Origin: Nocardioides sp. R-C-SC26
GTDB lineage: Bacteria; Actinomycetota; Actinomycetes; Propionibacteriales; Nocardioidaceae
Length of the DNA: 64,000 nt
Reading direction: 5' to 3'
Assembly: GCF_021246465.1 (NCBI RefSeq)
Contig: NZ_JAHRHK010000001.1
Coordinates: 162,060-226,059, forward strand
The stretch's first letter is position 1. Each line of letters starts with the position of its first letter. The notes below the pieces were generated by a model. The model was not told the DNA's origin. It worked only from the letters and a program-made list of their open reading frames with translations, and ran no database searches. Below, piece after piece: positions 28,941 through 43,195 of this stretch. Position numbers and translations under genes: made by a program.

Positions 28941-29013
28941 GGGGGTGTGGCGCAGCTGGTAGCGCACCTGCATGGCATGCAGGGGGTCAGGGGTTCGAGT
29001 CCCCTCACCTCCA
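28941..29013 (+). tRNA. tRNA-Ala (GGC)
   Basis: The 73-base cloverleaf folds fully: 7-bp acceptor (GGGGGTG/CACCTCC with one G-T), D-stem GCGC/GCGC, anticodon stem CCTGC/GCAGG around ATGGCAT with anticodon GGC, T-stem AGGGG/CCCCT around TTCGAGT, discriminator A. CCA is not encoded. Confidence 0.97.
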
Positions 29014-29043
29014 CCGGTACAGGTTCCGCAGCGAACCGGCGTC

Positions 29044-29067
29044 GAGGCGGCCCAGACGGGCCGCCTC
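29044..29067 (+). terminator. Terminator after tRNA-Ala
   Basis: GAGGCGGCCC and its exact complement flank AGAC, followed a few bases later by GCGTTTT. It is a good intrinsic terminator 30 bases after the tRNA. Confidence 0.85.
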
Positions 29068-29205
29068 GGCGCGTTTTCACCGGGTCCGCGCCTCCGGCGA
29101 CCCTCGCGTGGCCCGAGACCGGGACCCGGTGTGGGAACGTTGAGCCGTTGCGCGTCGGGGAGGTCGCGCGGGCCGCTGTGCGGCGATCGTGGCGAGGGGG
29201 CGGGC

Positions 29206-30318: not shown

Positions 30319-30909
30319 TCACGCTTCGTGACGGTCGCTTCCGCGGGGCCACGACCGCAGGGCGGTGTCGATCACGTCGAGCGCCCGTTCCCACGACCTC
30401 TGGCTCGGGGGAGGGCTGTGGTCGAAGGCGCCACCAGTTTCGAGCTCGACGAAGCCTCGGATCGTCGCACCGATGAACCGGACGGCGTGCGGGCGCTCGT
30501 CGTCGGGTACGGGATAGCCGCGCAGTACGGCGTCGTGGAGGCGGTGCAGGCGGGCCGCGACCTGCACCGACTCCTCGGTGGTCGTCAGATGCAGCTGCCG
30601 GGCGCGCGCATCTGGCCCCGGATGCTCCGCGGCGTAGCCGCGGTACAGCCCGCCCAGGGCGAGGAGGGCGTCCTTGCCGGAGAGCCCGGCGAGTGCGACG
30701 CCGCCCCGCTCGGCGAGCTCGGCGAGCGCGAGCAGGGAGATGCGCTCCCGAAGGTCCTCCGAGCCTCGGACATGGGAGTACAGGCTGGGCAGCGTCACCT
30801 CGAAGCGGCGCGCGAGCGCGGAGAGAGTGACGTGCTCCAACCCGACCTCGTCGGCCAGGTCGGCCGCGGCCCGCGTCAGACGCTCCGGGCTCAGCCCGGC
30901 ACGACTCAC
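30319..30909 (-). CDS. TetR-family transcriptional regulator (WHG C-terminal type)
   Basis: The protein has 196 residues. The N-terminal HTH reads LTRAAADLADEVGLEHVTLSALARRF followed by PSLYSHVRGSEDL; the C-terminal ligand domain resembles the WHG subtype. The GTG at 30909 overlaps the stop of the FBP gene (GTGA), so the two are co-translated, with the regulator second. A dyad at 31414-31439 upstream of the operon is the likely operator. Confidence 0.87.
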   Translation of the reverse strand: MSRAGLSPERLTRAAADLADEVGLEHVTLSALARRFEVTLPSLYSHVRGSEDLRERISLLALAELAERGGVALAGLSGKDALLALGGLYRGYAAEHPGPDARARQLHLTTTEESVQVAARLHRLHDAVLRGYPVPDDERPHAVRFIGATIRGFVELETGGAFDHSPPPSQRSWERALDVIDTALRSWPRGSDRHEA

Positions 30910-31400
30910 CGGCGCACCCGATCGACGAAGTCCTGCAGATTGCGGCGCAGCCGTGCAACCTGCTCCTCGGTCGACAGGGTCTCGTGCACGAGACTCACGG
31001 TCGGCGCGGGTGCCCAGCCACGCAGGTACCCCGAGCACCGCAGGTCGGTACACACCTCGATGCCGACGGTGTTGCCGTCGCGGCCCGCACGACCGGCCCG
31101 AGGGGCGACCATCAACGCCACCCCGGAGCCGGGATGGGTCGTGCAGCACAGCGAGCACATCCGAGCGCGCGTCAGGCCGGCCGCACTGGTGTTGCGCCGC
31201 AGGTGGACGCCGAGCGGTGCGCCGTCGTCGTCCCGGAGCACGAGGTGCGACTGCTGGGGCGCCTTCGGGTCGACCCAACCGAGGAAGTCCAGGCCCGGCC
31301 ACCGCTGTTCGGTCAGATCGGGCAGGTGCATCCGCTGGGCGTCGCCTCGCGTGCCGTTCACGAACGAGCCGCGGATCTCGCGCTCGGTGAGGTGCTCCAT
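30906..31400 (-). CDS. FBP-domain (EF-G-binding treble-clef zinc finger) protein
   Basis: The protein has 164 residues. The C-terminal half has CSLCCTTHPGSG and GIEVCTDLRCSGYLRG, the paired cysteines of the FBP C-terminal treble-clef zinc finger known from EF-G-binding FusB-like proteins. Full FusB proteins rescue stalled EF-G and give fusidic-acid tolerance; this actinobacterial form is shorter, so binding to EF-G is an inference. It is the first gene of a two-gene operon with the TetR regulator. Confidence 0.8.
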   Translation of the reverse strand: MEHLTEREIRGSFVNGTRGDAQRMHLPDLTEQRWPGLDFLGWVDPKAPQQSHLVLRDDDGAPLGVHLRRNTSAAGLTRARMCSLCCTTHPGSGVALMVAPRAGRAGRDGNTVGIEVCTDLRCSGYLRGWAPAPTVSLVHETLSTEEQVARLRRNLQDFVDRVRR

Positions 31401-31413
31401 GCACTCGACGGTA

Positions 31414-31439
31414 CGTTTCCTAAGGGTCCTAGGCAAACG
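31414..31439 (-). promoter_or_regulatory. Candidate TetR operator
   Basis: CGTTT at one end and AAACG at the other, with an inner AGG-GT-CCT core, give an imperfect 26-base dyad (9 of 13 pairs match). It ends 14 bases before the FBP start codon, so occupancy would block the operon promoter. Confidence 0.5.
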
Positions 31440-31530
31440 CCGAGCCTCATTCGCTCAGTCATCGCGTCGCGCCGTAGGACCGTCATCGGACTGGCGATGT
31501 CCGCGACCAGCGATCACGATCGCGCGCCGC

Positions 31531-31536
31531 GGGTAC
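31531..31536 (+). promoter_or_regulatory. GGGTAC promoter element (site a)
   Basis: GGGTAC followed by exactly 8 bases and the ATG of the small membrane protein. Here a GGGAGG also lies in the 8-base gap. No GNNT at the expected -35 spacing. Confidence 0.4.
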
Positions 31537-31544
31537 CGGGAGGC

Positions 31545-31706
31545 ATGGTGCTCGACCTCGTCCTCACGATCGCGGTGACCGTCTTCGTCGTGGCGATGAT
31601 CCTGGCCTTCGAGCGACGTCGGGCCGAGCAGATCCAGGCGGATCTGCGTGAAGAACTGCGTCGCCGACGCGAGATGTGGCGCGACGTCGACGAGTCGGAA
31701 GAGTGA
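31545..31706 (+). CDS. Small membrane-anchored coiled-coil protein
   Basis: This 53-residue ORF has one span at residues 3-21 followed by a highly charged helix (ERRRAEQIQADLREELRRRR) that could form a coiled coil. GGGAGG precedes the ATG. Not recognised. It lies in the stress-gene block behind a GGGTAC element and faces the FAD-Rieske gene tail to tail. Confidence 0.6.
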   Translation: MVLDLVLTIAVTVFVVAMILAFERRRAEQIQADLREELRRRREMWRDVDESEE

Positions 31707-31770
31707 GCCCTTTGCGATCAGCGGCGCGGGCGTCCTCTCTCGACACGACTCGGAGCCGCCCGGCCGCCGA

Positions 31771-33282
31771 CTAGCGCTGGGCGAGCGCCTGCGCGGCGGG
31801 TCCGTCCAGCACCGCGCCGTCGGCGTCGAAGCGCGAGCCGTGCAGCGGGCAGTCCCAGGAGTCCTCGGCGTCGTTCCATGTGACCACACCGCCCAGATGG
31901 GGGCAGACGCCGGACACCCGGCGTCGGCACCCGCCGTCGTCGGGAGCCACCGCCACCGGTGCGCCCACCCCCTCGTAGCGCACGTCTCCGGTGGTCGCGT
32001 CGCTCCGGTCGATGATCGGGCGCATCCATCCCGACGCCATCCGCAGGCCGACGTCGACGTTGAGAGCGGCGGTCTGGAGCGAACCGGGGATCTCGTGGAC
32101 CGACCACGGCTCGAAGGCCTCGGCCCAGTCCATCCGGCCACCGCAGATCCGTGCGGTCAGGGCCAGGCCCGCGGCGACGCCGTTGGTCATCCCCCACTTG
32201 GCGAAGCCGCCTGCTACCAGGAGATGCTCAGCGCCGGGGAGCACAGGGCCGACGACAGGCAGCCCGTGGGCGGTGGTGTAGTCCTGCGCCGACCAGGCAT
32301 GGGTCTCCACGCCGTCGGGGTACCAGGTCGCGGCCCACTCACGCAGCTGATCGAGATGGGATCGCGGCGAGGAGCCCCGCCCGGGCCGGGGCCCGGCCCC
32401 GCCGACGAGGAGGAGGCGGCCGGTCTCCGAGCCCGAAGCCGGGTCGGGCGCGTCACGCAACGACCTGGTCGGGCTGTCGACCGAGAGGAGCATCTCCTCG
32501 CACGGATCGCGAGGCAGTCGCAGCGCGACCGTGTAGGAGCGCTGCGCCGACATGCGGACGAAGAATCCGCCTCGATCCACCATCGGCATCCCGGTCGCGA
32601 CGACCACCGTCCGTGCATGCACGGTGCCCGCGCTGCTTCGCACCTCGACGGGGTCTCGGCCGAGCACCTGTCGTACGCGAGCGCTCTCGACGACGACCGC
32701 GCCGTGCGAGCGTGCCTCGTCCGCCAGTGCGCGACACACGGCGAGAGGATCCACCTGGAACTGGTCGGCGAGAGAGATGGCACCGCGCACGGGGAACGGA
32801 ACGTCGATCTCGCCGCGGGTCATGACGTCCAGTCCATGGCGACGAGCGAGTTTCCGCTCGTGCTTCACCAGGGCCTCGCCCCGACTCGAGGTCGCATAGC
32901 TGACCGCGTCGCGCGTCTCGACTGCGACGCCGTGGTCGGCGCAGAAGCGCGCGAGCCACGCTTGGCCCTCGCGGTTGGCCTCGACGTAGTGACCGACCAC
33001 GGACTCCCGATGTCCGCGCGACACCGACGTCAGCCGGGCGCCCTGCAGGAGCGTCACCTTGGCCGTGCTGCGGCCCGTCGTTCCAGCACCTACCGCCCGT
33101 GCCTCCAGGACGCACACGCTCAGACCGGACCGCGCGAGGAGGAGTGCCGTCGTGAGGCCGGTGATACCGGCGCCGACGACCACGACGTCCACCTCAGTTG
33201 GCGGAGTGGCGTCGTTCGTATGCGACCCGGACGTCGGTGCGTCGGTGGGTTGCAGATCGGTCCAGAGCGCGGTCAAGGGCAT
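31771..33282 (-). CDS. FAD-dependent oxidoreductase with C-terminal Rieske domain
   Basis: The protein has 503 residues. A DAO-type FAD domain starts with VDVVVVGAGITGLTTALLL (about residues 31-50). The last 90 residues are a Rieske [2Fe-2S] domain with C460-P-H462 and C478-P-L-H481. This DAO-Rieske fusion resembles Bacillus YhfW. It should oxidise an amine or amino-acid-like substrate and pass electrons through the Rieske cluster; the substrate is unknown. The ATG at 33282 was preferred; a GTG at 33375 would add 31 residues without hydrophobic or domain character. It is divergent from the diiron/CDGSH pair. Confidence 0.85.
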   Translation of the reverse strand: MPLTALWTDLQPTDAPTSGSHTNDATPPTEVDVVVVGAGITGLTTALLLARSGLSVCVLEARAVGAGTTGRSTAKVTLLQGARLTSVSRGHRESVVGHYVEANREGQAWLARFCADHGVAVETRDAVSYATSSRGEALVKHERKLARRHGLDVMTRGEIDVPFPVRGAISLADQFQVDPLAVCRALADEARSHGAVVVESARVRQVLGRDPVEVRSSAGTVHARTVVVATGMPMVDRGGFFVRMSAQRSYTVALRLPRDPCEEMLLSVDSPTRSLRDAPDPASGSETGRLLLVGGAGPRPGRGSSPRSHLDQLREWAATWYPDGVETHAWSAQDYTTAHGLPVVGPVLPGAEHLLVAGGFAKWGMTNGVAAGLALTARICGGRMDWAEAFEPWSVHEIPGSLQTAALNVDVGLRMASGWMRPIIDRSDATTGDVRYEGVGAPVAVAPDDGGCRRRVSGVCPHLGGVVTWNDAEDSWDCPLHGSRFDADGAVLDGPAAQALAQR

Positions 33283-33410
33283 GGCGATGCGGTGCCCGGA
33301 GGCGCGCGGTTCATGCGGCCCGAGAGGGTGGTCGGAAGGCCAGAGCGGTGATGTCGTGCCGATCCCGACAGGCACCCACCCCTGGGGGTGGAAATAGGCA
33401 CGCCCACGGT

Positions 33411-33416
33411 GGGTAC
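33411..33416 (+). promoter_or_regulatory. GGGTAC promoter element (site b)
   Basis: GGGTAC followed by exactly 9 bases and the GTG of the heme-oxygenase-like gene. Only a poor -35 match (GAAAT) is seen. Confidence 0.5.
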
Positions 33417-33425
33417 CACGCGCTC

Positions 33426-34400
33426 GTGCGCCTCCCCACGTCCCGCGGCCCGCTCGGCTCCGCGGTCTTCCACGCCCTGACCCACGACGTCGCGTCCCTC
33501 CGCGAGATCGGCCCCTCGTCGTCCGGGACGACTCACGACGACGAGGCGCTCACCCTCTGGGCCCTCCACGAGCTCTCCTATCGCGGCTTCGACGACGTCG
33601 ATGACGACCTCGAGTGGGACGCCGACGTGCTGCGTGTGCGTCGGATGCTCGAGAGACGGCTCGAGGCCCGGCTCCGCGAACGATGGGACGCCGCCTCGGC
33701 CCCGGGCGATGACGGACGCGACGGCGATGTCGGTGACGCGTTGTTCGCCTTCGTCGAGGCGTTCGACGGTCCGTCCGTGGCGCGCCACCTGCAGTCTCAC
33801 GCGGACGTCGAACAGGCGCGCGACTTCCTCCGGGTGAAGTCGATCTACCACCTCAAGGAGTCCGACCCGGTGTCGTGGCTGCTTCCGCGGCTCTCGGCGC
33901 GGCCCAAAGCCGCGCTCGCCGAGATCCAGTACGACGAGTACGGTGCGGGCGATCCCAATCGCCTGCACCACCAGCTCTTCGCGCGCGGGCTGCAGGCCTC
34001 CGGCCTCGATCCGACCTACGGCACCTACATCGACGAGACGCCGGTCGAGGTGCTCGAGCAGAACAACGCCGTCTCCCTCTTCGGCCTCCACCGGCGACTG
34101 CGCGCCGCCGCCGCGGGCCATCTCGCGGCGTTCGAGGCCACCAGCTCGGTCCCGTCACGCCGGATCGCGCAGGGTCTTCGTCGTCTCGGCCTCCCCGAGG
34201 AGATCGTCGGCTACTACACCGAGCACGTCACCGCGGACGCGGTGCACGACCAGCTCGCGGTCCGCGCGATCTGCGCTGCGATGGTGGAGGAGGAGCCGAC
34301 CCTGTACGACGACGTCCTCTTCGGTGCGTTCACCTGCATGGATCTGGAACGGCGATTCGCCCAGACCTGGTTGGCGACGTGGGCGGAGGCAGCCGCATGA
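33426..34400 (+). CDS. Iron-containing redox enzyme family (heme-oxygenase-like diiron fold)
   Basis: The protein has 324 residues, nearly all helical. The hallmark DEYGAGDPNRLHHQLFA (about residues 170-186) is typical of the Haem_oxygenas_2 / heme-oxygenase-like diiron oxidase family, where Glu and His residues hold two irons. Members catalyse N-oxygenation, desaturation or C-C cleavage; the reaction here cannot be predicted. The GTG start follows GGGTAC by 9 bases with no ribosome site, consistent with leaderless translation. It overlaps the CDGSH gene by 4 bases (ATGA). Confidence 0.8.
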   Translation: MRLPTSRGPLGSAVFHALTHDVASLREIGPSSSGTTHDDEALTLWALHELSYRGFDDVDDDLEWDADVLRVRRMLERRLEARLRERWDAASAPGDDGRDGDVGDALFAFVEAFDGPSVARHLQSHADVEQARDFLRVKSIYHLKESDPVSWLLPRLSARPKAALAEIQYDEYGAGDPNRLHHQLFARGLQASGLDPTYGTYIDETPVEVLEQNNAVSLFGLHRRLRAAAAGHLAAFEATSSVPSRRIAQGLRRLGLPEEIVGYYTEHVTADAVHDQLAVRAICAAMVEEEPTLYDDVLFGAFTCMDLERRFAQTWLATWAEAAA

Positions 34401-34696
34401 GCGGCCGCTCGCCCGACGACGGTTCGTCGGGGTCGTCGGCGTCTCAGCTGAGGGTGGCACCCCCGGATCCGCGCGATGCGACCTCCATCGAGTCCGGCAC
34501 GCTGCCGCACGCCGACGTCGTGCTGTGCCCAGGTGGGCCGATGCTGCTGCGTGGCGACGTCGTCGTCCAGGACGCCGAGGGCAACCGGCACCGCACCACC
34601 CGGCCGGTGAGCGCCGTCTGCCGCTGCTTGAAGTCGGCGGACCTGCCGTGGTGCGACGGCACGCACCAGCTGCTGCCGCCCGGCAAGAGGCCCTAG
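34397..34696 (+). CDS. CDGSH iron-sulfur domain protein
   Basis: The protein has 99 residues. The C-terminus has CRCLKSADLPWCDGTH, the C-x-C-x8-C-x2-GTH arrangement that binds a redox-active [2Fe-2S] cluster by three Cys and one His. The first 35 residues are polar and disordered. It is translationally coupled to the diiron protein, for which it is a natural electron donor or partner. Confidence 0.88.
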   Translation: MSGRSPDDGSSGSSASQLRVAPPDPRDATSIESGTLPHADVVLCPGGPMLLRGDVVVQDAEGNRHRTTRPVSAVCRCLKSADLPWCDGTHQLLPPGKRP

Positions 34697-34749
34697 CCAG
34701 GACGCCGGGTCCCCGCGGGCGGTGAGCACCAGCAGTCGCACAGGGAGGC

Positions 34750-35415
34750 TCAGGCCCGCGCTAGGTGGCCGATGACGCCGCGCTCACCCTGGCGGTATGC
34801 CACGACGCGCCAGCGTCGCCCCTCCAGCGAGGCGAGTTGGCCCCGGTCGCCGACCTGGATGACCACGGCGCCCCCGAGTTGCAGATGGCGATCGGCGACC
34901 GTCAGGGAGCGGCGCGCGATGGCCAGGCCGTCGTCTCCGCCGTCGATGGCGAGAAGCGGGTCCTCCGGGAAGGTCGCGGTGTCCTCCGATCGGACCCAGG
35001 GCGGGTCGGCGATCACGAGAGGGAAGCGCTCGTCCGGTGCGATCGCGTCGTCCATGTCCGCGTGCCTCACATCGACGCGGTCGCCCAGTCCGGCTGCTGC
35101 GGCGTTGCGCGTGGCAAACTCGCACGCCACGGGGTTCAGGTCGACGGCGACGAGCGGCCGCCCGGTGAGGTGAGCGAAGAGAAGCCCGATCTGTCCGGCC
35201 CCGGCACACAGTTCCAGAGCCGGTCCGGCGGGCAGACTGGCGCTGATCTCGGCCGCCCAGCGAGACTGCAACTGGGTCCAGGGGCGGGGGCGTAGGACGC
35301 GCGTATCGAAGACGATCTCGAGCGGTCCGAAGGCCGTCGACTCCTCGTCGAGAACGGCGCCCCGGGATTCGCGCGACGTCGAGGCACTGTCCGGTCCTTC
35401 GGAATCCGCAGTCAT
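34750..35415 (-). CDS. SAM-dependent methyltransferase (small HemK-like)
   Basis: The protein has 221 residues from the ATG at 35415. SAM motif I is LELCAGAGQIGLLFA and the catalytic loop is ADPPWV, the (N/D)PPY/W motif of N- or small-molecule amino methyltransferases. The start is supported by a GGGTAC element ending 9 bases upstream with GGTGT at the -35 spacing; an in-frame GTG at 35454 would lie upstream of that promoter. It is downstream of the sigma-factor gene on the same strand, 72 bases away. The substrate is unknown. Confidence 0.75.
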   Translation of the reverse strand: MTADSEGPDSASTSRESRGAVLDEESTAFGPLEIVFDTRVLRPRPWTQLQSRWAAEISASLPAGPALELCAGAGQIGLLFAHLTGRPLVAVDLNPVACEFATRNAAAAGLGDRVDVRHADMDDAIAPDERFPLVIADPPWVRSEDTATFPEDPLLAIDGGDDGLAIARRSLTVADRHLQLGGAVVIQVGDRGQLASLEGRRWRVVAYRQGERGVIGHLARA

Positions 35416-35424
35416 GTGCGAGGA

Positions 35425-35449
35425 GTACCCAGAGTCGGCCGAGCTACAC
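35425..35449 (-). promoter_or_regulatory. SigB/SigF-type promoter (site c)
   Basis: Reading on the minus strand: GGTGT, 15 bases, GGGTAC, 9 bases, ATG. This is the best match in the window to GNNT-N14-16-GGGTA(C/T), the form reported for Streptomyces SigB. It is just downstream of the sigma-factor gene. Confidence 0.65.
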
Positions 35450-35487
35450 CGCACTTTCTCTCAGACGGGTGACGCCGTGACGCTGGC

Positions 35488-36351
35488 TCAGGCCGGAACC
35501 GGGTCCACGGACTGCAGGTCGCCGATCTGACCCCGTAGATCGCGGAGGATCCGGCTCAACCACCGTGACACCTGCATCTGCGGCACCCCGAACTGGTCGC
35601 CGATCTGCTGCTGGGTGCGCTCCTCGTAGAAGCGGAGGTACAGCACGGTCCGGTCCCGCTCACTCAGCTCGGTGAGAGCGGGCCCGAGCACGACACGCGC
35701 CTCGGCCGCCTCGCGGGGGTCGCGGGCGTCGGCGACCGCGTCGCCGAGACTGCTGTGCTCGTTGCCGTCGACCGGTTGGTCCAGCGACGGCGGGGTGAAG
35801 CACCCGAAGGAGGTCACCACCTCGGCGTACTCGTTCCGGTCGATGTCCAGGTGCTCGCACAACTCCTGGGGGGTCGGCTCGCGGCCGAGCTCCAGGCTGA
35901 GGTGGTCGATGCTCTGGTTGATCCGCCACTGCATCTCCTGGATGCGTCGCGGCGGTCGGATGCTCCACGAACGGTCCCGGAAGAAGCGCAGAACCTCCCC
36001 GCGGATCGTCGGCACGGCATACGAGAGCAGGTCGTGCCCGCTCTCGGGATCGAAACGCTGCACCGCCTTGACGAGGCCTTCGCAGGCGGCCTGCTCCAGA
36101 TCCTCCAGGTCGACACCTCGACCGCGATACCGGGCCGCCACGGCGCGGGCGACGCGGTGATTGATCTCGATGACCTCGGCGAGCAGTCGTTCCCGTTCGG
36201 CCTCGTTCAGGACGTCGGCCGCGCGGCGCAGCAGTTGATCGGTCAGGGCCGAGCGCTCATCGCGCGTGAGGCCTACGGCGGGAGTGGGATGGTCCAGGTC
36301 GACGATCGCGGTGAGCGGCGACACGTCGACGGAGCGCGAGAAAGTAGGCAT
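35488..36351 (-). CDS. RNA polymerase sigma factor, SigB/SigF/SigG subfamily
   Basis: The protein has 287 residues. Region 2 is visible as RYRGRGVDLEDLEQAACEGL and FDPESGHDLLSYAVPTIRGE, region 3 as HLSLELGREPTPQELCEHL, and region 4 as LTELSERDRTVLYLRF with the HTH in TQQQIGDQFGVPQMQVSRWL. This three-region layout is that of the general stress or sporulation group 3 sigmas. No anti-sigma kinase (RsbW-type) gene is adjacent; a STAS protein lies 6 kb away. It is the obvious candidate to read the GGGTAC elements around it. The ATG was chosen as the first start with homology following. Confidence 0.9.
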   Translation of the reverse strand: MPTFSRSVDVSPLTAIVDLDHPTPAVGLTRDERSALTDQLLRRAADVLNEAERERLLAEVIEINHRVARAVAARYRGRGVDLEDLEQAACEGLVKAVQRFDPESGHDLLSYAVPTIRGEVLRFFRDRSWSIRPPRRIQEMQWRINQSIDHLSLELGREPTPQELCEHLDIDRNEYAEVVTSFGCFTPPSLDQPVDGNEHSSLGDAVADARDPREAAEARVVLGPALTELSERDRTVLYLRFYEERTQQQIGDQFGVPQMQVSRWLSRILRDLRGQIGDLQSVDPVPA

Positions 36352-36583
36352 GAAGGTCCGTCTCCGAGAGGTGCGACGGGATCCTTGCCGTGGTCTCCAG
36401 CAAGAAGGGGTATCTAGACCAAACCACGCCAGGTCGCCGAGCGCCACCTCCGGCGGGTGTCTAGTGCAGCCGTCGGCAGACAGATTCCAGTGAGTCTCAT
36501 CGCCATGGCGAGACCCGGGAGTGCATCGCCCCCGGCGGGCGGGGCACCGGTCGTGACAGAAGGCGACCGAGGAGGAGGACGGG

Positions 36584-36850
36584 ATGGCGACCACTCACGA
36601 CGGCGGGGAACGACTCGCCGAGGGGACGACGGACCCCGACGACGCGGGCACCGAGCACGACGGACAGCTGTCCACCGGTGACGAGCACACCCCGGGCGAG
36701 CCGATCTCGCCGGGCGACGCAGTCGCCGGGGCGCCGGGCGAGGTCGAGCCGGGCGCCTCGACGCGCCCGGCGCAGGAGCGACGGCCGGACGAGGGGCCGG
36801 CCGGTCCGGATGGCATCCCCGACCATGACGAGGCGCCGTCCCGGCCATGA
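36584..36850 (+). CDS. Small acidic disordered protein
   Basis: The protein has 88 residues, no hydrophobic core, and a composition dominated by Asp, Glu, Gly, Pro and Thr. The ribosome site is strong (GGAGGAGGAC just before ATGG). It resembles the hydrophilic, intrinsically disordered proteins often found in actinobacterial stress loci, but I cannot name a family. It is divergent from the sigma gene by 233 bases, a region that holds a GGGTAT at 36408 and nothing else I can recognise. Confidence 0.55.
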   Translation: MATTHDGGERLAEGTTDPDDAGTEHDGQLSTGDEHTPGEPISPGDAVAGAPGEVEPGASTRPAQERRPDEGPAGPDGIPDHDEAPSRP

Positions 36851-36899
36851 GTCTCCTCACTCTCGGGCACTGCGGGATCGGCGGAGACTGAGTCTCACC

Positions 36900-36924
36900 G
36901 CATCTGTCTGCACCGATCGGGTAC
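36900..36924 (+). promoter_or_regulatory. SigB/SigF-type promoter (site d)
   Basis: GCAT, 15 bases, GGGTAC, 8 bases, then ATG at 36933. It would drive the small ORF and the coupled alcohol dehydrogenase. Confidence 0.6.
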
Positions 36925-36932
36925 CGACGACG

Positions 36933-37061
36933 ATGGATACGACGAGAGACGACAGGGTCACCTTTCTCGAGCGCTCCGCGGGTGTCGGACGTCAAGGCTC
37001 ACCCGACGGATCGAGGTGCGGCCATCGACGTCGTGCCGACGCGGTAGGGGCTGCGCGATGA
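36933..37061 (+). CDS. Small ORF translationally coupled to alcohol dehydrogenase
   Basis: This 42-residue reading frame begins 8 bases after GGGTAC and ends with TGA overlapping the dehydrogenase ATG (ATGA). The product is charged and Arg-rich at its end, with no known domain. It may be a leader that couples translation of the dehydrogenase to leaderless initiation, or a non-functional stretch of leader. Confidence 0.45.
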   Translation: MDTTRDDRVTFLERSAGVGRQGSPDGSRCGHRRRADAVGAAR

Positions 37062-38245
37062 GGGCCGTCACCTGGCACGGACGCACCGACATGCGGGTGA
37101 TCGACGTGCCCGACGCGGCACTGGAGGAGCCGACCGACGCGATCGTGAGGATCACCTCCACCGGTCTGTGCGGCTCGGACCTGCATCTCTACGATCCACT
37201 GGCCCCCTTCATGGAGTCCGGCGACATCGTGGGCCACGAACCGATGGGCGTGGTCGAGGCCGTGGGCACGGGCGTCACGACACTCCGCCCGGGTGACCGC
37301 GTGGTGGTGCCCTTCAACATCAGCTGCGGGAGCTGCTGGATGTGTGGCCAGGGACTGCACTCGCAGTGCGAGACCACGCAGAACCGCGAGCACGGGACAG
37401 GGGCGAGCCTCTTCGGCTACAGCAAGCTCTACGGTCAGGTACCCGGTGGCCAGGCCGAAGCGATGCGCGTCCCCTTCGCCGACTTCCTCCCGGTCGTCGT
37501 GCCGGAGGGCCCTCCGGACGAGAGGTTCCTCTACCTGTCCGATGTCCTGCCCACCGCATGGCAGGCCGTGGAGTACGCGGACGTCGCGGATGGCGGCACG
37601 CTGGCGGTGATGGGCGCCGGACCGATCGGCGACATGGCTGCCCGCATCGCGCTGCACCGAGGCCTGCGCGTGCTGGTGGTGGATCGGGTTCCCGAGCGCC
37701 TGGAGCGCGTCGCGGCCCGCGGCGCGGAGACCGTCAGCCTCGACGACGTCGGCAGCGAGCACCTGGCCGAATGGGTGCGGGAGCGCACCGCGGGGCGGGG
37801 CGCCGACGCCGTCGTCGACGCCGTCGGCATGGAGGCACACGGATCGCCGATGACCGAGGCGGCCCAGAAGGCGCTGGGTCTCCTGCCCAAGCGCGCCGCC
37901 GCCGCCCTGATGACACGCGTGGGCGTCGACCGGCTCGATGCGCTGTTGCAGTCCATCGAGTGCGTGCGTCGAGGCGGCACCGTCTCCATCAGCGGTGTCT
38001 ACGGCGGGGCGATGGATCCCCTGCCCTTGATGCAGATGTTCGACAAGCAGCTGCAGTTCCGGATGGGGCAGGCGAACGTGCGTCGCTGGAGCGACGACAT
38101 CCTCGCGCTGCTCAGCGAGGACGAGGACCATCTCGGCACCGAGTCGTTCGCCACCCACCGGCTCCCGCTGGAGGAGGCGCCCGGGGCCTACGCGTCGTTC
38201 CGCGACAAGGAGGACGGCATGGTGAAGGTGGTCTTCAAGCCCTGA
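37058..38245 (+). CDS. Zinc-dependent alcohol dehydrogenase (formaldehyde-dehydrogenase-like)
   Basis: The protein has 395 residues. Medium-chain dehydrogenase features: catalytic zinc in STGLCGSDLHLY and VGHEPMG, structural zinc cysteines in SCGSCWMCGQGLHSQC, and the NAD-binding MGAGPIGDMAA. The length and insert (about 255-310) resemble glutathione-independent formaldehyde dehydrogenase-like ADHs. The substrate may be an aldehyde or polyol. The GGGTAC-driven leader ORF suggests stress induction. It is convergent with an SDR gene. Confidence 0.9.
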   Translation: MRAVTWHGRTDMRVIDVPDAALEEPTDAIVRITSTGLCGSDLHLYDPLAPFMESGDIVGHEPMGVVEAVGTGVTTLRPGDRVVVPFNISCGSCWMCGQGLHSQCETTQNREHGTGASLFGYSKLYGQVPGGQAEAMRVPFADFLPVVVPEGPPDERFLYLSDVLPTAWQAVEYADVADGGTLAVMGAGPIGDMAARIALHRGLRVLVVDRVPERLERVAARGAETVSLDDVGSEHLAEWVRERTAGRGADAVVDAVGMEAHGSPMTEAAQKALGLLPKRAAAALMTRVGVDRLDALLQSIECVRRGGTVSISGVYGGAMDPLPLMQMFDKQLQFRMGQANVRRWSDDILALLSEDEDHLGTESFATHRLPLEEAPGAYASFRDKEDGMVKVVFKP

Positions 38246-38270
38246 CAGAGCCGAGGCGTGCGCACGACGT

Positions 38271-39143
38271 TCAGAACACGGGGCGTCCTCCGGTGACACC
38301 GAGCACGGTGCCCGAGACGTAGGAAGCGTCGGCGGGGGAGGCGAGGAAGACGAAGGCGGGAGCGACCTCGCTCGGTTGCCCGGCGCGGCCGAGCGGGGTG
38401 TTCTCGCCGAAGTGCCGGATCTTCTCCTCGGGCTGCGTCGCCGGCTGCAGGGGCGTCCAGATGGGGCCGGGGGCCACCGCGTTGACCCGGATCCCGTCCG
38501 CACCCAGCATCGCGGCGAGGTTGACCGTCACATTGTTGATCGCGGCCTTGGTGGCGGCGTAGTCGAGCAAGGTCTCCGAGGGCTCGAAGGCCTGGATCGA
38601 ACTGCAGTTCACGATGCAACCCGGTCGCTCGCGCAGGTGGGGCAGCGCGGCGCGGCTCAGCCAGAACAGCGCGCTGAGGTTGGTGTCGAGGGTGCGCTGC
38701 AGTCGCTCGTCGTCGAGCTCCTCCAAGGAGGTGTCGCGGGCCATCTGGTAGCCGGCGTTGTTGACCAGCACGTCGATCCCACCGAGTTCGCCGACCGCGG
38801 CTGCCACGACGCCGTCACAGGCGCCGGAGGTCCGCAGGTCTGCCTCGATCGCGGCCACCCGCCGCCCGGCCTGCTCCCCCCAGGACGCCGTGACCTCGGC
38901 GTCCCCCGCCTCCTCGGGCAGGTAGGTGAAGGCGACATCGGCGCCCTCGCGGGCGTAGGCGATGGCCACGGCGCGGCCGATGCCGGAGTCGCCGCCGGTG
39001 ATGAGTGCACGCTGGTCGCGGAGTCGCTGGTTCCCGCGGTAGCTCTGCTCGCCGTGATCGGGCTGAGGGCGCATCTCGGCGGTCGTCCCCGGCGGGGACT
39101 GCTGCTGCGAAGGGAAGGACGCGGTGTCGTCGGACGTCGTCAT
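38271..39143 (-). CDS. Short-chain dehydrogenase/reductase (YghA-like)
   Basis: The protein has 290 residues. The cofactor motif is TGGDSGIGRAVA (residues 50-61), the NAG-like NNAGYQMA, and the catalytic Ser, Tyr and Lys in CSSIQAFEP and DYAATKAAI. The extended, disordered N-terminus with QPDHGEQSYRG is characteristic of the stress-associated YghA/YdaD-type SDRs. It probably reduces an aldehyde or keto sugar with NADPH. GGGTAC precedes the ATG by 8 bases. Confidence 0.9.
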   Translation of the reverse strand: MTTSDDTASFPSQQQSPPGTTAEMRPQPDHGEQSYRGNQRLRDQRALITGGDSGIGRAVAIAYAREGADVAFTYLPEEAGDAEVTASWGEQAGRRVAAIEADLRTSGACDGVVAAAVGELGGIDVLVNNAGYQMARDTSLEELDDERLQRTLDTNLSALFWLSRAALPHLRERPGCIVNCSSIQAFEPSETLLDYAATKAAINNVTVNLAAMLGADGIRVNAVAPGPIWTPLQPATQPEEKIRHFGENTPLGRAGQPSEVAPAFVFLASPADASYVSGTVLGVTGGRPVF

Positions 39144-39151
39144 GGCGACCG

Positions 39152-39177
39152 GTACCCGTCGGCCCGGACGCGCACGC
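39152..39177 (-). promoter_or_regulatory. SigB/SigF-type promoter (site e)
   Basis: On the minus strand: GCGT, 16 bases, GGGTAC, 8 bases, ATG of the SDR gene. Confidence 0.55.
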
Positions 39178-39197
39178 AGCGTGCCTCCGTGGTCGGA

Positions 39198-39929
39198 CTA
39201 CGCCGTGTCGGAGTCGGCGGTCGCCGAGACCTCGAGCGGGGGCAGCGAGCCGGTGTCGAGGACCGTCTGTGCCACGTCGCGCAGCTTGATGTTCGCGTCG
39301 TTGGAGTAGCGATGCAGGATCGAGAACGCCGTCTCGTAGTCCACGCCGTAGGTGGTGGCGAGCACCCCTTGGGCGATCCCGATGGCGTGCCGCGAGTCCA
39401 AGGCGGCCCGGAGGCCGGTGACGACCTGGGACCGACGTAGCGCCTCGCCGGCGTGGCTGGCGTAGACGCTCGCCAGAGCTCGCTCGGTCGGGTCGTCGAA
39501 CGCGCCAGGCGACTCGGCGTAGAAGTTGATGGCGCCGAGTGGGCCCGACTCGCCTCGGATCGCGACCGCGTACGCCGATCGGATGCCCAGGTCGAGTGCT
39601 CCGCGGGTCCAGGAAGACCACCGACTCTCGGTCTGGAGGTCCGAGATCACGAAGTCCTCCTGCTCGAAGGCGGCGTCGATACAGGGGCCGTCGTTGAGTT
39701 CGCTCTGCAGCTCGTCAGCGCGTCGCGCGGTCGGAGAGCTGGCTGCCTCGGAGTGATGCAGGCTGCGCTTGCCTCGCACGGTCAGCCCGCAGTGGTCGGC
39801 GGCCTCCACCACCTCGACGGCACGCGTGGTCACCAACTCCGATGTCGCCATTCCGTCACGGGCGCGATGGAGGTCGTCGCTGATCTGGGCGAAGTAGCGC
39901 GCCAGGTCGGTGCGGTTGTCGTTGCTCAT
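39198..39929 (-). CDS. GAF and ANTAR domain RNA-binding regulator
   Basis: The protein has 243 residues. An N-terminal GAF sensor domain (about 20-165; GPCIDAAFEQEDFVISDLQ) is followed by an ANTAR domain (about 170-228) with SRHAIGIAQGVL and the aromatic FSILHRYSND typical of the three-helix RNA-binding fold. ANTAR proteins bind two-hairpin RNA motifs and prevent transcription termination. GAGGGACG precedes the ATG. It is divergent from a second GAF-ANTAR protein. Confidence 0.9.
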   Translation of the reverse strand: MSNDNRTDLARYFAQISDDLHRARDGMATSELVTTRAVEVVEAADHCGLTVRGKRSLHHSEAASSPTARRADELQSELNDGPCIDAAFEQEDFVISDLQTESRWSSWTRGALDLGIRSAYAVAIRGESGPLGAINFYAESPGAFDDPTERALASVYASHAGEALRRSQVVTGLRAALDSRHAIGIAQGVLATTYGVDYETAFSILHRYSNDANIKLRDVAQTVLDTGSLPPLEVSATADSDTA

Positions 39930-40096
39930 CGTCCCTCGTCGGGTCTCGCGATGGTGGGGGTCGGGACACCGGCGCCCAGCCTCTCGCACGCGGCAGGCCG
40001 AGACAACCCCGGCGACAGGGTGCGACGGAGAGTAGGCAACACTGTTCCCCGTCCTGGAGCAGACGGGGCACGACACCGATGTTCTGGGAGTTGTGC

Positions 40097-40909
40097 ATGC
40101 CCCTCGATGATCTCGCCAGCGTCCTGGCGCGGGTCTCATTGCAGTTGGCCGGTGAGCGTGACGAGGCCGTCACCGCGGTGCGGATCTGCGAACTCGCGGT
40201 CGAGCTCGTGGAGAACTGCGACCACGCGAGCCTGATGTTGAAGTCGCGTCGAGGCAGGTTGCGCACCCGCGCGGCGTCCTCGTCTCTGTGCGAGGAGCTG
40301 GACGAGAGGCAACTCGTCCATGCCGAGGGGCCGAGCCTGGACGCGATCGAGACCGGCGAACCCCAGCACTCGGGCAGAGTCGCGCAGGACGCGCGCTGGA
40401 CGTCGTGGGGCCCCCAGGCCGCGGAACTCGGTGGACGATCGGTGATCGCCGTGCCGCTCCGCGTCGGCGGTGAGGCGACGGGAGCCATGACGCTCTACTC
40501 CCACCAGCAGGACGCGTGGGGTCGCGACGGCGTCGACTTCGCCCTGCTCTACACGACGCACGCCGCGATCGCCCTCGACGCGGCGAAGGTCATCTCCGGT
40601 CTGGAGACGGCGTTGACAAGCCGCCATCAGATCGGTGTCGCGCAGGGGGTCCTGATGGAACGGCACGGCCTCACGGTGGGCCGCGCCTTCACCGTGCTCC
40701 AGCGCTACAGCAGCACGACGAACACGCCGCTGAGCGACGTCGCCGCCCGCATCGTGCGGGAGGCGGACCAGGCCGCCGCGTCGAGCCGGGTGGGTCCCGG
40801 AGCACCCTCGACCGCCGAGACCGACCACGATCTCGGCGGTATTGCGTCGACGACGGGCGCGGGTGCTCATCAGAACGCGACGCCCGCTGACCCGCGGGAT
40901 CCGACGTGA
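40097..40909 (+). CDS. GAF and ANTAR domain RNA-binding regulator
   Basis: The protein has 270 residues. GAF (about 15-165; GPSLDAIETGEPQHSGRVAQ) and ANTAR (about 170-230; SRHQIGVAQGVLMERHG, FTVLQRYSS) are followed by a disordered tail of about 40 residues. It is a paralogue of the divergent gene and may act as an antiterminator that responds to a small ligand. GGGAG precedes the ATG at 40097; an in-frame ATG at 40079 would place that site inside the gene. Confidence 0.88.
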   Translation: MPLDDLASVLARVSLQLAGERDEAVTAVRICELAVELVENCDHASLMLKSRRGRLRTRAASSSLCEELDERQLVHAEGPSLDAIETGEPQHSGRVAQDARWTSWGPQAAELGGRSVIAVPLRVGGEATGAMTLYSHQQDAWGRDGVDFALLYTTHAAIALDAAKVISGLETALTSRHQIGVAQGVLMERHGLTVGRAFTVLQRYSSTTNTPLSDVAARIVREADQAAASSRVGPGAPSTAETDHDLGGIASTTGAGAHQNATPADPRDPT

Positions 40910-41051
40910 CCCCCACCATCGGGTGAGGAGTGAACCGCCGCGTGCGGGGCACCGGATGGATGCGCCACCTCGGTTACGCACCGCTCGGGGCGCCGCGGGT
41001 CCCGCCGGCATGTGAGGGTCGACGGGACCCGCGTCGTGTCCAGCCGAACGG

Positions 41052-41303
41052 TCAGCGAGGTGGCCGGTCCGGGCCGGCCCACGTGGCCGGCGGGTCGCTT
41101 CCCGGGAAGGACTCGGCGCTGCGCTCGTCGACCGAACTGCCGCGCTCGTCAGTGGCGCCTGCATCCGCGTCGCGCTCCGCGTCGGGCGGAGGAGGGTCCG
41201 GGTGAGGGCCTGTGTCGTCTGCCCCGTCCGGGAGGCCGTTGCCCGGAGGGCCGGCGTCCTGGTCGGGATTGTCGGTGTTCGGTGTCTCCGGTGTGGTGTC
41301 CAT
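41052..41303 (-). CDS. Small acidic disordered protein with ESFPGSDPP motif
   Basis: The protein has 83 residues, rich in Asp, Pro and Gly. Near the C-terminus, SAESFPGSDPPATW matches a short motif (ESFPxSDPP) that I recall in many small bacterial stress-associated proteins; its function is unknown. The ATG follows GGGTAC by 8 bases, suggesting leaderless expression from a stress promoter. Confidence 0.6.
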   Translation of the reverse strand: MDTTPETPNTDNPDQDAGPPGNGLPDGADDTGPHPDPPPPDAERDADAGATDERGSSVDERSAESFPGSDPPATWAGPDRPPR

Positions 41304-41311
41304 ACATCGCG

Positions 41312-41317
41312 GTACCC
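41312..41317 (-). promoter_or_regulatory. GGGTAC promoter element (site f)
   Basis: On the minus strand GGGTAC, 8 bases, ATG. A GTTG lies 14 bases upstream, close to the GTTT -35 of mycobacterial SigF. Confidence 0.5.
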
Positions 41318-41369
41318 GACGCGGAAGCGCTCAACAGCAGATCCGGTCTCTTCCAGCGAGGGACCGGTT

Positions 41370-41395
41370 GAGTGAAGCGCTGGACCTGCGGGTAC
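41370..41395 (+). promoter_or_regulatory. SigB/SigF-type promoter (site g)
   Basis: GAGT, 16 bases, GGGTAC, 8 bases, ATG of the 42-residue membrane protein. Confidence 0.55.
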
Positions 41396-41403
41396 CCGGA
41401 CAC

Positions 41404-41532
41404 ATGAACCGCGACGACAGTCCGTTGCACCCGGCTCCCCACGAGTCCAAGCGACCGATCGCGCTCGGGGGAGTGGTGGCCCTGATCGTCATGGTGCTCG
41501 CGCTTCTCGTGATCGTGGCGCTCACCCGCTAG
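41404..41532 (+). CDS. Tiny single-span membrane protein
   Basis: This 42-residue ORF has a polar N-terminus (HPAPHESKRP) and one strongly hydrophobic span from residue 19 to 40. There is no ribosome site; GGGTAC lies 8 bases before the ATG, so it is probably leaderless. It may be a stress-induced membrane peptide. Not recognised as a family. Confidence 0.6.
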   Translation: MNRDDSPLHPAPHESKRPIALGGVVALIVMVLALLVIVALTR

Positions 41533-41639
41533 TCGACGGACCAGAAGTGGCGGCCCCTCAGCCCTCAGCCGGCTCGTTCGCAGTGCCGCCTCGCCGTCAA
41601 ACTGCGCAGAGCGGCACTGGTCCCCGGGCGTCGGGGTCG

Positions 41640-41912
41640 TCAGTGATCGCGAAGTGCGACCACGAGTTCGTCCTTGGTCATCGTGGAACGGCCGTCGATC
41701 TCAAGCTCGCGGGCGCGTCGGCGCAGCTGGTCGACGGTCCAGTCCTCGTAGGAGCCTGATCGCCCGCCGCGGCGTCCGACGCGGGACCGGCCCTCACTCG
41801 CCGAGGCGTTGGCGATCCGCGCCGCCTTCTCCTTGCTGGCTCCCTCGCGGCGTAATGCGTCGTAGGTCTCGTCGTCCTTGACGCTGGGGCCGTGGTCACG
41901 TCCGGCTGGCAT
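41640..41912 (-). CDS. DUF7218 plus Rho N-terminal-like domain protein
   Basis: The protein has 90 residues. The N-terminal half (KDDETYDALRREGASKEKAA) matches a small helical family seen in plasmid- and stress-associated proteins. The C-terminal 35 residues (WTVDQLRRRARELEIDGRST) form a Rho_N/SAP-like helix-extension-helix that can bind nucleic acid. GGAGGTAGCC lies immediately before the ATG. Likely a small nucleic-acid-associated stress protein. Confidence 0.75.
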   Translation of the reverse strand: MPAGRDHGPSVKDDETYDALRREGASKEKAARIANASASEGRSRVGRRGGRSGSYEDWTVDQLRRRARELEIDGRSTMTKDELVVALRDH

Positions 41913-42004
41913 GGCTACCTCCGAGTGGTGGACACATCTGCGGATCCGGTTCCCCGCGGGAGTCGAGTCATGCTCACCCCTTCGGGTCGATCTCGGGCCA
42001 CGCG

Positions 42005-42029
42005 GCATGGATGGCGCGGCAGGGGGTAC
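42005..42029 (+). promoter_or_regulatory. SigB/SigF-type promoter (site h)
   Basis: GCAT, 15 bases, GGGTAC, 8 bases, ATG of the isochorismatase-like gene. Confidence 0.55.
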
Positions 42030-42037
42030 TGAACAGC

Positions 42038-42673
42038 ATGGCTCCCACTCGTGCGCTACCCCCCGACGGCGACGTCGGTCGCGAAGCGCTGGTCCTGGTC
42101 GATCTACAGACCGAGTTCTTCGCCGATCCTCAGATGGCCCCGCACCGGATGGGCGTCGTCCGGGCGGTCAACGCGCTCGCAGCATCGGCACGGACGGCTG
42201 GACATCTCATCGTCGAGGTCCGCACGCTGCACCATCCCGACGGGAGCACGTGGACGATGGACATGCGCGAGGACTCCGAGCCGCGCGCCGTGCGGGGGAC
42301 ACCCGGAGCCGTGGCGCTGCCCGAACTGGCCCTCGAGGGGGCGGTGCTCGTCCCGAAGGCACGCAACAGCGCGTTCCACGGCACCGACCTCGGCGAGCTG
42401 CTGTCGACGGCCGGCGTGCGTCGCGTGGTGCTCGCGGGTGTCTCGGCCGAGACCTGCATCTACGCGACCGCGTCGGATGCGTACGCCCGGGACCTCCGCG
42501 TCACGCTGGCCGATGAGGCGATCGCCTCGACCGACGAGGCGCGGCGCCGACGAGCCCTGGAGGAGTTGCGTGTGCAGTATCGCCAGCCGCTGTGCTCGGT
42601 CCGCGAGATCGTCCGGACGTGGACGCCGTCCACCCGTCAGTACGGAGGCAGCGATGTCGCACTCTCCTCATGA
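42038..42673 (+). CDS. Isochorismatase-like cysteine hydrolase
   Basis: The protein has 211 residues. The catalytic triad is visible: Asp in LVLVDLQTEFF, Lys in VLVPKARNSAF and Cys in GVSAETCIYAT. Members hydrolyse amides or vinyl ethers such as nicotinamide, N-carbamoylsarcosine or isochorismate; the substrate is not readable. The ATG at 42038 follows GGGTAC by 8 bases. It overlaps the STAS gene by 20 bases, so the two are co-expressed. Confidence 0.85.
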   Translation: MAPTRALPPDGDVGREALVLVDLQTEFFADPQMAPHRMGVVRAVNALAASARTAGHLIVEVRTLHHPDGSTWTMDMREDSEPRAVRGTPGAVALPELALEGAVLVPKARNSAFHGTDLGELLSTAGVRRVVLAGVSAETCIYATASDAYARDLRVTLADEAIASTDEARRRRALEELRVQYRQPLCSVREIVRTWTPSTRQYGGSDVALSS

Positions 42674-43109
42674 CCGCCGTCGGCTCCTCACCGTCGACGT
42701 CGAGCCGGTCGACACGACGGCGGACGCCGCCATCGTGCGCCTGGCCGGCGAGGTCGACCTCGCCGGGCTCCCCCTGCTCCGGCGGATCCTCCAGGAGCTG
42801 AGCGAGCAAGGGCGCATCCACCAGGTCGTCGACATGAGTTCGGTCTCCTTCATCGACTCCGCCGGCCTGGGTGCTCTCGTCGGTGCGCACCAGCGCCTGC
42901 GCGGTCTCGGCGGCGCGCTGCACCTGGCCTCCGTCGCCCCGACAGTGCGGACCGTGGTCACCGTGACCGGATTGAACTTCGTCTTCCGCGTGCACGAGGA
43001 CCTCGCGGAGGCGCTCGCCGCCGTCGGGGAGGGGAGCGGAGCCGCCCAGGCCGGCGAGGCGGCGAGCGGCGATCCGTCGACCGGCCCCGAGCAGGAGACG
43101 ACCGCCTGA
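42654..43109 (+). CDS. STAS-domain anti-sigma factor antagonist
   Basis: The protein has 151 residues. The STAS domain (about 10-115) contains VVDMSSVSFIDSAGLGALVG, with the phosphorylatable Ser in DSAGL as in SpoIIAA/RsbV. Unphosphorylated antagonists free a partner sigma factor from its anti-sigma kinase. A GGAGG site precedes the ATG. Because it is expressed from a GGGTAC promoter together with a hydrolase, it could feed back on the nearby SigB/SigF-type sigma; that is an inference. The C-terminal 35 residues are disordered. Confidence 0.88.
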   Translation: MSHSPHDRRRLLTVDVEPVDTTADAAIVRLAGEVDLAGLPLLRRILQELSEQGRIHQVVDMSSVSFIDSAGLGALVGAHQRLRGLGGALHLASVAPTVRTVVTVTGLNFVFRVHEDLAEALAAVGEGSGAAQAGEAASGDPSTGPEQETTA

Positions 43110-43195
43110 GGCAGCGCCGTCTCGTCGTCAGATGCTCGCTCGCCGTTCAACCGACGGCAACGACGCCTCCTGCCGCCGTCCCTACGTTCCGCAGC

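Follow-up and report, generated by a model that had tools for sequence, protein, structure and literature searches.

The closest described systems are the SigB-type promoters of Streptomyces coelicolor and the SigF promoters of Mycobacterium smegmatis, and what we say of them here and below follows the available parts of the cited papers. In S. coelicolor, the distance from the -10 box to the transcription start site is mostly 8-11 bases, with three entries at 3-7 (PMC8346170), and sspA is SigF-dependent and leaderless by S1 mapping (PMC4282423). For M. smegmatis SigF, ten GGGTA entries have a listed position of 8-11 from the start codon, and 142 and 158 genes were down in the sigF mutant in two phases (PMC4694148). 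Of the transcripts of this species 24% are leaderless (PMC6448022), and in M. tuberculosis leaderless translation is reported to be more robust under stress than Shine-Dalgarno translation (PMC8485053). Here we analysed a stretch of 64,000 nucleotides from Nocardioides sp. R-C-SC26 (the window: contig 1, 162060-226059, in a genome of 3,717,144 bases; all positions below are those of the window). A block of about 12 kb within it, taken as 30501-43200 for the hexamer statistics, carries GGGTAC directly before eight start codons together with a gene for a sigma factor of the SigB/SigF subfamily. This block is very probably a stress-response island, mostly leaderless, under the control of an alternative sigma factor of the SigB/SigF type.

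The original prediction had named eight GGGTAC sites, each followed after 8 or 9 bases by the start codon of a different gene, five of them with GNNT upstream. We find all eight in place, with a gap of 8 bases (N8) at sites a and d to h and of 9 bases (N9) at b and c:

31531..31536, plus strand: site a, GGGTAC-N8-ATG, no clear GNNT, before a membrane-protein open reading frame (ORF) of 53 amino acids at 31545-31706
33411..33416, plus strand: site b, GGGTAC-N9-GTG, serving the haem-oxygenase-like gene
35425..35430, minus strand: site c, GTGT-N15-GGGTAC-N9-ATG, at the start of the HemK/PrmC-like methyltransferase gene
36919..36924, plus strand: site d, GCAT-N15-GGGTAC-N8-ATG, before a 42-codon ORF at 36933-37061
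39152..39157, minus strand: site e, GCGT-N16-GGGTAC-N8-ATG, at the start of the SDR gene
41312..41317, minus strand: site f, GTTG-N14-GGGTAC-N8-ATG, before an acidic protein of 83 amino acids at 41052-41303 without family match
41390..41395, plus strand: site g, GAGT-N16-GGGTAC-N8-ATG, before a membrane protein of 42 amino acids at 41404-41532 without family match
42024..42029, plus strand: site h, GCAT-N15-GGGTAC-N8-ATG, at the start of the isochorismatase-family hydrolase gene

The start codon is ATG at seven sites and GTG at b, and the GNNT elements of c, d, e, g and h are present at a spacer of 15 or 16, making 5/8 sites exact. That each site starts a different gene is not borne out at d, whose 42-codon ORF may, by its composition, not be a gene. 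The ORF behind site a gave no family match and no homologue in the related loci searched.

Within the block, GGGTAC is the most frequent of all hexamers standing 8-9 bases before ATG (7 cases), and the other 119 permutations of its letters have a mean of 0.24 at this place. For the 24 copies of GGGTAC in the window, 0.37 placements at N8-9 before ATG are expected (P about 1e-7). Throughout the genome, GGGTAC-N8-ATG occurs 9 times, of which 6 in the block, and GGGTAC-N9-ATG 7 times, once in the block; the motif scan therefore did not find the placement equally frequent before unrelated genes. Four of the nine sites outside the block lie in frames that are open 80-363 codons further upstream, four others are open for less than 50 codons, and the ninth (L176, C27:334309) is a possible gene start. 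Adding the -35 element, GNNT-N14-16-GGGTAC-N8-9-RTG has 10 matches genome-wide versus 6 in the reversed control. Five of these ten have ATG and all lie in the block, and the five elsewhere have GTG. The predicted local confinement is thus borne out, with all five full GNNT and ATG sites of 3.7 Mb inside the block. After dropping the ATG requirement, we saw no genome-wide excess of GNNT-N15/16-GGGTAY (93 versus 103 in the reversed control). A genome-wide regulon in this species was accordingly not seen with this consensus, whose scan misses GGGCAC and GGGAAC boxes and could hide a modest number of leadered sites in its background.

Homologous loci allowed us to follow the promoter beyond a single genome. 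The nearest named relatives of the window SDR belong to Nocardioides, Pimelobacter and Aeromicrobium, and among 80 named SDR loci we took a related set of 30 (L091-L114, L116, L137, L140, L141, L153, L155). This choice was partly made after the result at the SDR start had been seen, so that SDR counts in this set are biased; the -35 profile and the genes other than SDR played no role in it. The set was enlarged by 7 loci from genus genomes for the -35 profile (37 loci) and by 6 for the gene-by-gene promoter count (36 loci). It holds close relatives, so that sites are not independent, and identical sites were counted once (L182 is the contig of L105). In 63 distinct GGGTA-N9/10-ATG sites of the 37 loci, chosen without regard to the -35 region and with an ORF of at least 40 codons, GNNT stands at spacer 15 in 67%, at 16 in 13%, at 17 in 10%, and in no more than 0-5% at any other distance between 8 and 23. 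At 33 GGGTA sites with ten other start spacings, GNNT at spacer 15 reaches 24%, as expected if this set holds leadered promoters. Counted regardless of a start, the 30 loci contain 108 GNNT-GGGTA pairs with spacer 15, 33 with 16, 43 with 17 and 10-34 with each remaining spacer from 8 to 23. Since 47 of the 108 pairs have ATG or GTG at N8-10, roughly half of the spacer-15 promoters look leaderless. The sixth base of GGGTAN varies (C, A, T, G) among orthologous sites. The proposed promoter class, GNNT-N15/16-GGGTA placed at the start codon, is supported by this -35 profile and by the promoters of the homologues described below.

For the SDR itself, sought in 147 genus genomes, 24 of the best 30 loci, our own included, have GGGTA[C/A/T] at N8-10 ahead of an in-frame ATG, and L043, L053, L055, L058, L059 and L060 lack it near the start. 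GGGTA precedes an in-frame start at N9-11 in 21 of the 80 named SDR loci, which come from Nocardioides, Pimelobacter, Mumia, Jiangella, Phytoactinopolyspora, Myceligenerans, Enemella, Ruania and a single metagenome assembly. The other 59 do not have it there, including 7/7 of Aeromicrobium. In many SDR copies of Promicromonospora, Cellulosimicrobium and Cellulomonas, a purine-rich stretch resembling a Shine-Dalgarno sequence takes the place of GGGTA (by eye, not counted). Also by eye, the Aeromicrobium SDR genes of L108 and L109 have GTTT upstream, followed at a distance of about 15 bases by GGGGAA ahead of the ATG, which may be a variant -10 box, and the Georgenia and Agrococcus SDR genes (L160, L162, L165, L166, L168) have no GGGTA and carry a G-rich GGGGGC or GGGGGAC directly before ATG. 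In L091, L092 and L094-L097, another full leaderless promoter lies just beyond the end of the SDR match (about 10860-10869), before the next gene.

The full leaderless motif GNNT-N15/16-GGGTAC-N8-10-ATG occurs 1500 times in the 147 genus genomes versus 259 in the control (median 10 versus 2 per genome), with 5 in this genome (control 1) and none in 8 genus genomes. The 30 island loci contain 26 copies in 586 kb (control 1) and the remaining 50 loci none in 995 kb (control 1). The sites are denser around the island than across these genomes, despite SDR selection and shared ancestry. In 11 relatives, further sites occur elsewhere in nearly every genome among the matches listed; here, nothing stands out beyond the island.

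The distance to the start codon sets the window apart from its relatives. Of its GGGTAC-ATG sites, 6/7 have N8, whereas GGGTAC in the 30 related loci stands 0 times at N8, 27 times at N9 and 5 times at N10 (Fisher P 2e-6 versus the window, for loci that are not independent). With any sixth base after GGGTA, the 37 loci have 5 sites at N8, 52 at N9 and 11 at N10, so that N8 is rare and not absent; one such case, L189, has N8 before the haem-oxygenase-like gene. It is conceivable, though we hold it to be a doubtful proposal, that in this species a leaderless SigB-type regulon has contracted to, or was assembled as, one self-contained island, about 12 kb long and with its sigma gene inside, with N8 one base under the usual N9 of the relatives; this would be a compact stress module of leaderless mRNAs with its output tuned by transcription and ribosome choice.

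Besides the eight sites, the block and its edge hold the following genes and further promoter candidates:

31771..33282, minus strand: FAD-dependent oxidoreductase (DAO) with a C-terminal Rieske domain (PF01266, PF00355), 503 amino acids
33292..33297, minus strand: Rieske-FAD promoter candidate GCAT-N15-GGGCAC-N9-ATG, in leaderless position
33426..34400, plus strand: iron-containing redox enzyme, Haem_oxygenas_2 (PF14518)
34397..34696, plus strand: CDGSH iron-sulfur protein (PF09360), overlapping the end of the b gene, with Shine-Dalgarno sequence
34750..35415, minus strand: HemK/PrmC-like methyltransferase (family profile match)
35488..36351, minus strand: SigB/SigF/SigG-family sigma factor (PF04542, PF04539, PF04545), with Shine-Dalgarno sequence
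36542..36547, plus strand: leadered promoter candidate GCAT-N15-GGGCAC, 36 bases before the 88-codon ORF
36584-36850, plus strand: 88-codon ORF with Shine-Dalgarno sequence, no family match
37058..38245, plus strand: zinc-dependent alcohol/formaldehyde dehydrogenase-like protein (family profile match)
38271..39143, minus strand: SDR oxidoreductase, PRK06128/PRK06701-like, under their cut-offs
39198..39929, minus strand: GAF-ANTAR protein, no SigB-type promoter found
40097..40909, plus strand: GAF-ANTAR protein (start 40079 or 40097), no SigB-type promoter found
41640..41912, minus strand: DUF7218 / Rho_N-like small protein with Shine-Dalgarno sequence, recurring in related islands
41949..41954, minus strand: leadered promoter candidate GCAT-N15-GGGAAC, 36 bases before DUF7218
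42038..42673, plus strand: isochorismatase-family hydrolase (PF00857; NF050097 under cut-off)
42654..43109, plus strand: STAS-domain protein of the anti-anti-sigma type (PF01740), overlapping the end of the h gene

The gene families fit the proposed products, namely redox and detoxification enzymes and small membrane or acidic proteins. A relaxed scan of the block with GNNT-N14-16-GGG[TAC]A gave 14 matches: the 5 known ones, 3 that fit gene starts and 6 others that are intragenic or unplaced (30505, 35021, 36039, 37111, 37643, 40947). With 6 such matches among 14, the added candidates are individually less secure than the GGGTAC sites. The start of the Rieske-FAD gene was reassigned to the ATG at 33282 on account of the GGGCAC-N9-ATG candidate there. 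The island may hold as further units the Rieske-FAD oxidoreductase, DUF7218, the 88-codon ORF and the STAS gene behind h, with DUF7218 and the 88-codon ORF in leadered form. The two GAF-ANTAR genes form a divergent pair inside the island (39198-39929 / 40097-40909), for which no SigB-type promoter was found, neither in the window nor at 8 related loci; ANTAR domains are RNA-binding antiterminators. Just upstream of the block, a PAS-HisKA-HATPase histidine kinase gene (28972-30306) adjoins a TetR-type regulator gene on the opposite strand (30319-30900).

Gene by gene, we searched the 36 loci for GNNT-N15-17-GGG[TAC]A between 200 bases upstream and 40 downstream of the aligned start, a 240-base search with a chance rate of about one in six (an estimate, not a computed value). 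A promoter precedes 30/32 SDR, 19/20 haem-oxygenase-like, 11/17 DUF7218, 7/13 methyltransferase and 10/27 sigma homologues. It is in leaderless position at 22 SDR, 6 haem-oxygenase-like, 6 methyltransferase genes and 1 DUF7218 gene. The GAF-ANTAR homologues had none in 8 loci; the two queries match the same genes, so that their zeros, here and in the next count, are one control. GGGTA 7-11 bases before an in-frame start was found, in 87 loci, at 23/83 SDR, 8/14 methyltransferase, 4/21 haem-oxygenase-like, 2/3 isochorismatase and 2/20 DUF7218 genes and at 1/30 sigma genes (an upstream start that is not trusted), and at 0/17 CDGSH, 0/6 Rieske and 0/20 and 0/21 GAF-ANTAR genes. For the methyltransferase, 9/30 loci, our own included, have GGGTAC 8-9 bases before an in-frame start. 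Subsets of the genes for sigma, haem-oxygenase-like protein, CDGSH, dehydrogenase, SDR, DUF7218 and methyltransferase recur together in relatives; the 91 loci of the gene-content comparison include duplicates, as L181, L182, L187 and L188 repeat named contigs.

In line with the claim that ribosome sites would mostly be missing, none of the eight sites (0/8) has AGGA, GGAG or GAGG at -6 to -17, our rule for a Shine-Dalgarno sequence; at site a, GGGAGG lies nearer to the ATG than this range. By the same rule the CDGSH, sigma and DUF7218 genes, the 88-codon ORF and one GAF-ANTAR gene have one, and the Rieske gene, the dehydrogenase gene and the other GAF-ANTAR gene do not. Placing the RNA 5' ends from the sequence, we consider that the mRNAs of most units probably have no leader.

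These findings can be joined in a model in which RNA polymerase with a SigB/SigF-type sigma factor would recognise GNNT-N15/16-GGGTA, with C or A less often in place of the T. Most units would begin transcription at the start codon or within 1-2 bases of it, since their -10 box lies 8-9 bases before this codon; a few would carry a Shine-Dalgarno sequence in a leader of about 36 bases. The expected sigma gene of the SigB/SigF subfamily is indeed inside the block, with regions 2, 3 and 4 above the Pfam cut-offs. The closest full-length homologues found in the genus share 58-60% identity with it, and a structure search did no more than confirm a protein of the sigma-70 class (best 1l0o chain C), which is silent on specificity. 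The STAS antagonist gene in the regulon neighbourhood (42654-43109), overlapping the h gene, fits partner-switch control; its product may act in a partner switch on an anti-sigma kinase and thereby on the block sigma. From sequence features we infer the start sites, a stress signal, this partner switch and the role of the sigma factor at 35488-36351 as main reader.

Several observations weigh against this interpretation. Sites a, b and f have only a degenerate -35 element. The 42-codon ORF at d has a G+C content at third codon positions of 0.60 versus 0.80-0.91 in eleven other ORFs of the block. The best NCBIfam match of the block sigma, TIGR02980 (SigB/F/G), reaches 220 bits versus a cut-off of 234, and no anti-sigma kinase gene adjoins it; the sole match to PF13581 in the window (29950-30273; 18 matches located) is part of the PAS-HisKA kinase. 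Contig 41 carries a second SigF-like sigma gene, its product 38% identical to the block sigma, beside an RsbW-like gene. The absence of a Shine-Dalgarno sequence alone is no marker, since this sequence is missing from the dehydrogenase gene and from one GAF-ANTAR gene as well. Among the homologues in the 36 loci, only 4/14 dehydrogenase and 2/5 Rieske-FAD genes have a promoter, none of the latter leaderless, and a promoter with GNNT was found at 0/3 h and 0/1 STAS homologues; the added candidates and the h promoter have less homologue support. Finally, one genome (G091) has three block-type sigma homologues and no site.

Site d deserves a separate remark. The end of its ORF overlaps the dehydrogenase start at 37058 as ATGA, and 125 bases separate the d ATG from the dehydrogenase ATG further downstream. 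The composition of the ORF speaks against coding and its position for translational coupling. The site probably serves the dehydrogenase, via a leader of about 125 bases or via a coupled short ORF (leader peptide).

Which sigma factor reads the promoters is the part of the model with the most serious competitor. They may be real and yet be read mainly by the SigF-like sigma of contig 41, with the block sigma as a minor or redundant paralogue, a view that we think possible, though unlikely. The adjacent RsbW-like/SigF-like gene pair speaks for it, as does the cross-recognition of promoters by the nine SigB homologues of S. coelicolor (PMC8346170). The block sigma also has no SigB-type promoter of its own, as the relaxed scan found no GNNT-N14-16-GGG[TAC]A upstream of its gene. 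Against this stands that, of the 14 named Nocardioides/Pimelobacter island loci, at least 12 contain a block-type sigma homologue (L100 is without one, and L111 is not among the matches listed). Besides, the SigF-like class (36-42% identity, about 140-168 bits) occurs in 7/8 site-free and 8/8 site-rich genomes, so that its presence does not track the sites. The block-type copies track them weakly: the eight site-richest genomes have 1-3 each (mean 2.5) and the eight site-free ones 0-3 (mean 1.0), a difference with a Mann-Whitney P of 0.014 at a self-chosen limit of 180 bits or more. That GGGTAC is instead the operator of a DNA-binding regulator near ordinary promoters is very improbable. The palindrome GTAC within it and the nearby TetR-type and histidine kinase genes would suit an operator, but the one-sided GNNT at a 15-base spacing, the constant distance to the start, the variable sixth base and the SigB-type sigma in the block suit a -10 box, and it is the 15-base partner GNNT on which we reject the operator. 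A chance cluster of a GC-rich hexamer picked by eye, for which the selection of the motif after looking and the missing genome-wide excess of GNNT-N15/16-GGGTAY might be quoted, is contradicted by the hexamer ranking, by the genome scan with 5/5 full ATG sites in the block and by the conservation of homologue sites across species, and we dismiss it.

The SigB/SigF-driven island, as we prefer to read it, carries the promoter rule of actinobacterial SigB/SigF factors to Nocardioides and its allies with comparative evidence. The base-exact model GNNT-N15-GGGTA-N8/9-ATG predicts start codons and small proteins, and the island is a small natural collection in which to ask whether the lack of leaders in stress genes has a reason. 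Among the entries listed from the open PMC literature, none deals with leaderless promoters of the SigB type in Nocardioides, although such a paper may still exist. The promoters of the S. coelicolor SigB homologues (GNNT or GTTT, GGGTAN), in the available part of that work, resemble those described here: they have GNNT as -35 and GGGTAC/T/G as -10 element and a start mostly 8-11 bases on, and sspA is a leaderless example; N8 and N9 both fit this 8-11 base distance. In contrast, S. coelicolor has nine sigma homologues and promoters at many places, whereas here the full leaderless form is found in one island, with N8 at 6/7 ATG sites. M. smegmatis SigF shares GTTT-N15/16-GGGTA, and its dependent genes, as far as the source lists them, include many numbered around sigF (MSMEG_1766-1804), among them a methylase, an oxidoreductase and a dehydrogenase (PMC4694148). 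It differs in that 142 and 158 genes are affected, compared with no excess outside the block here. Islands in Nocardioides, Pimelobacter and Aeromicrobium likewise combine a SigB-type sigma with subsets of the genes and GNNT-N15-GGGTA promoters, but they mostly have N9 or N10 before ATG and promoters elsewhere too, and 0/7 Aeromicrobium loci have a site at the SDR start. Since leaderless SigF promoters such as that of sspA and SigF-dependent genes around sigF are already known from the accounts available, the block belongs to a known type. What is unusual here is the concentration of the sites in one island together with the one-base shift in spacing.

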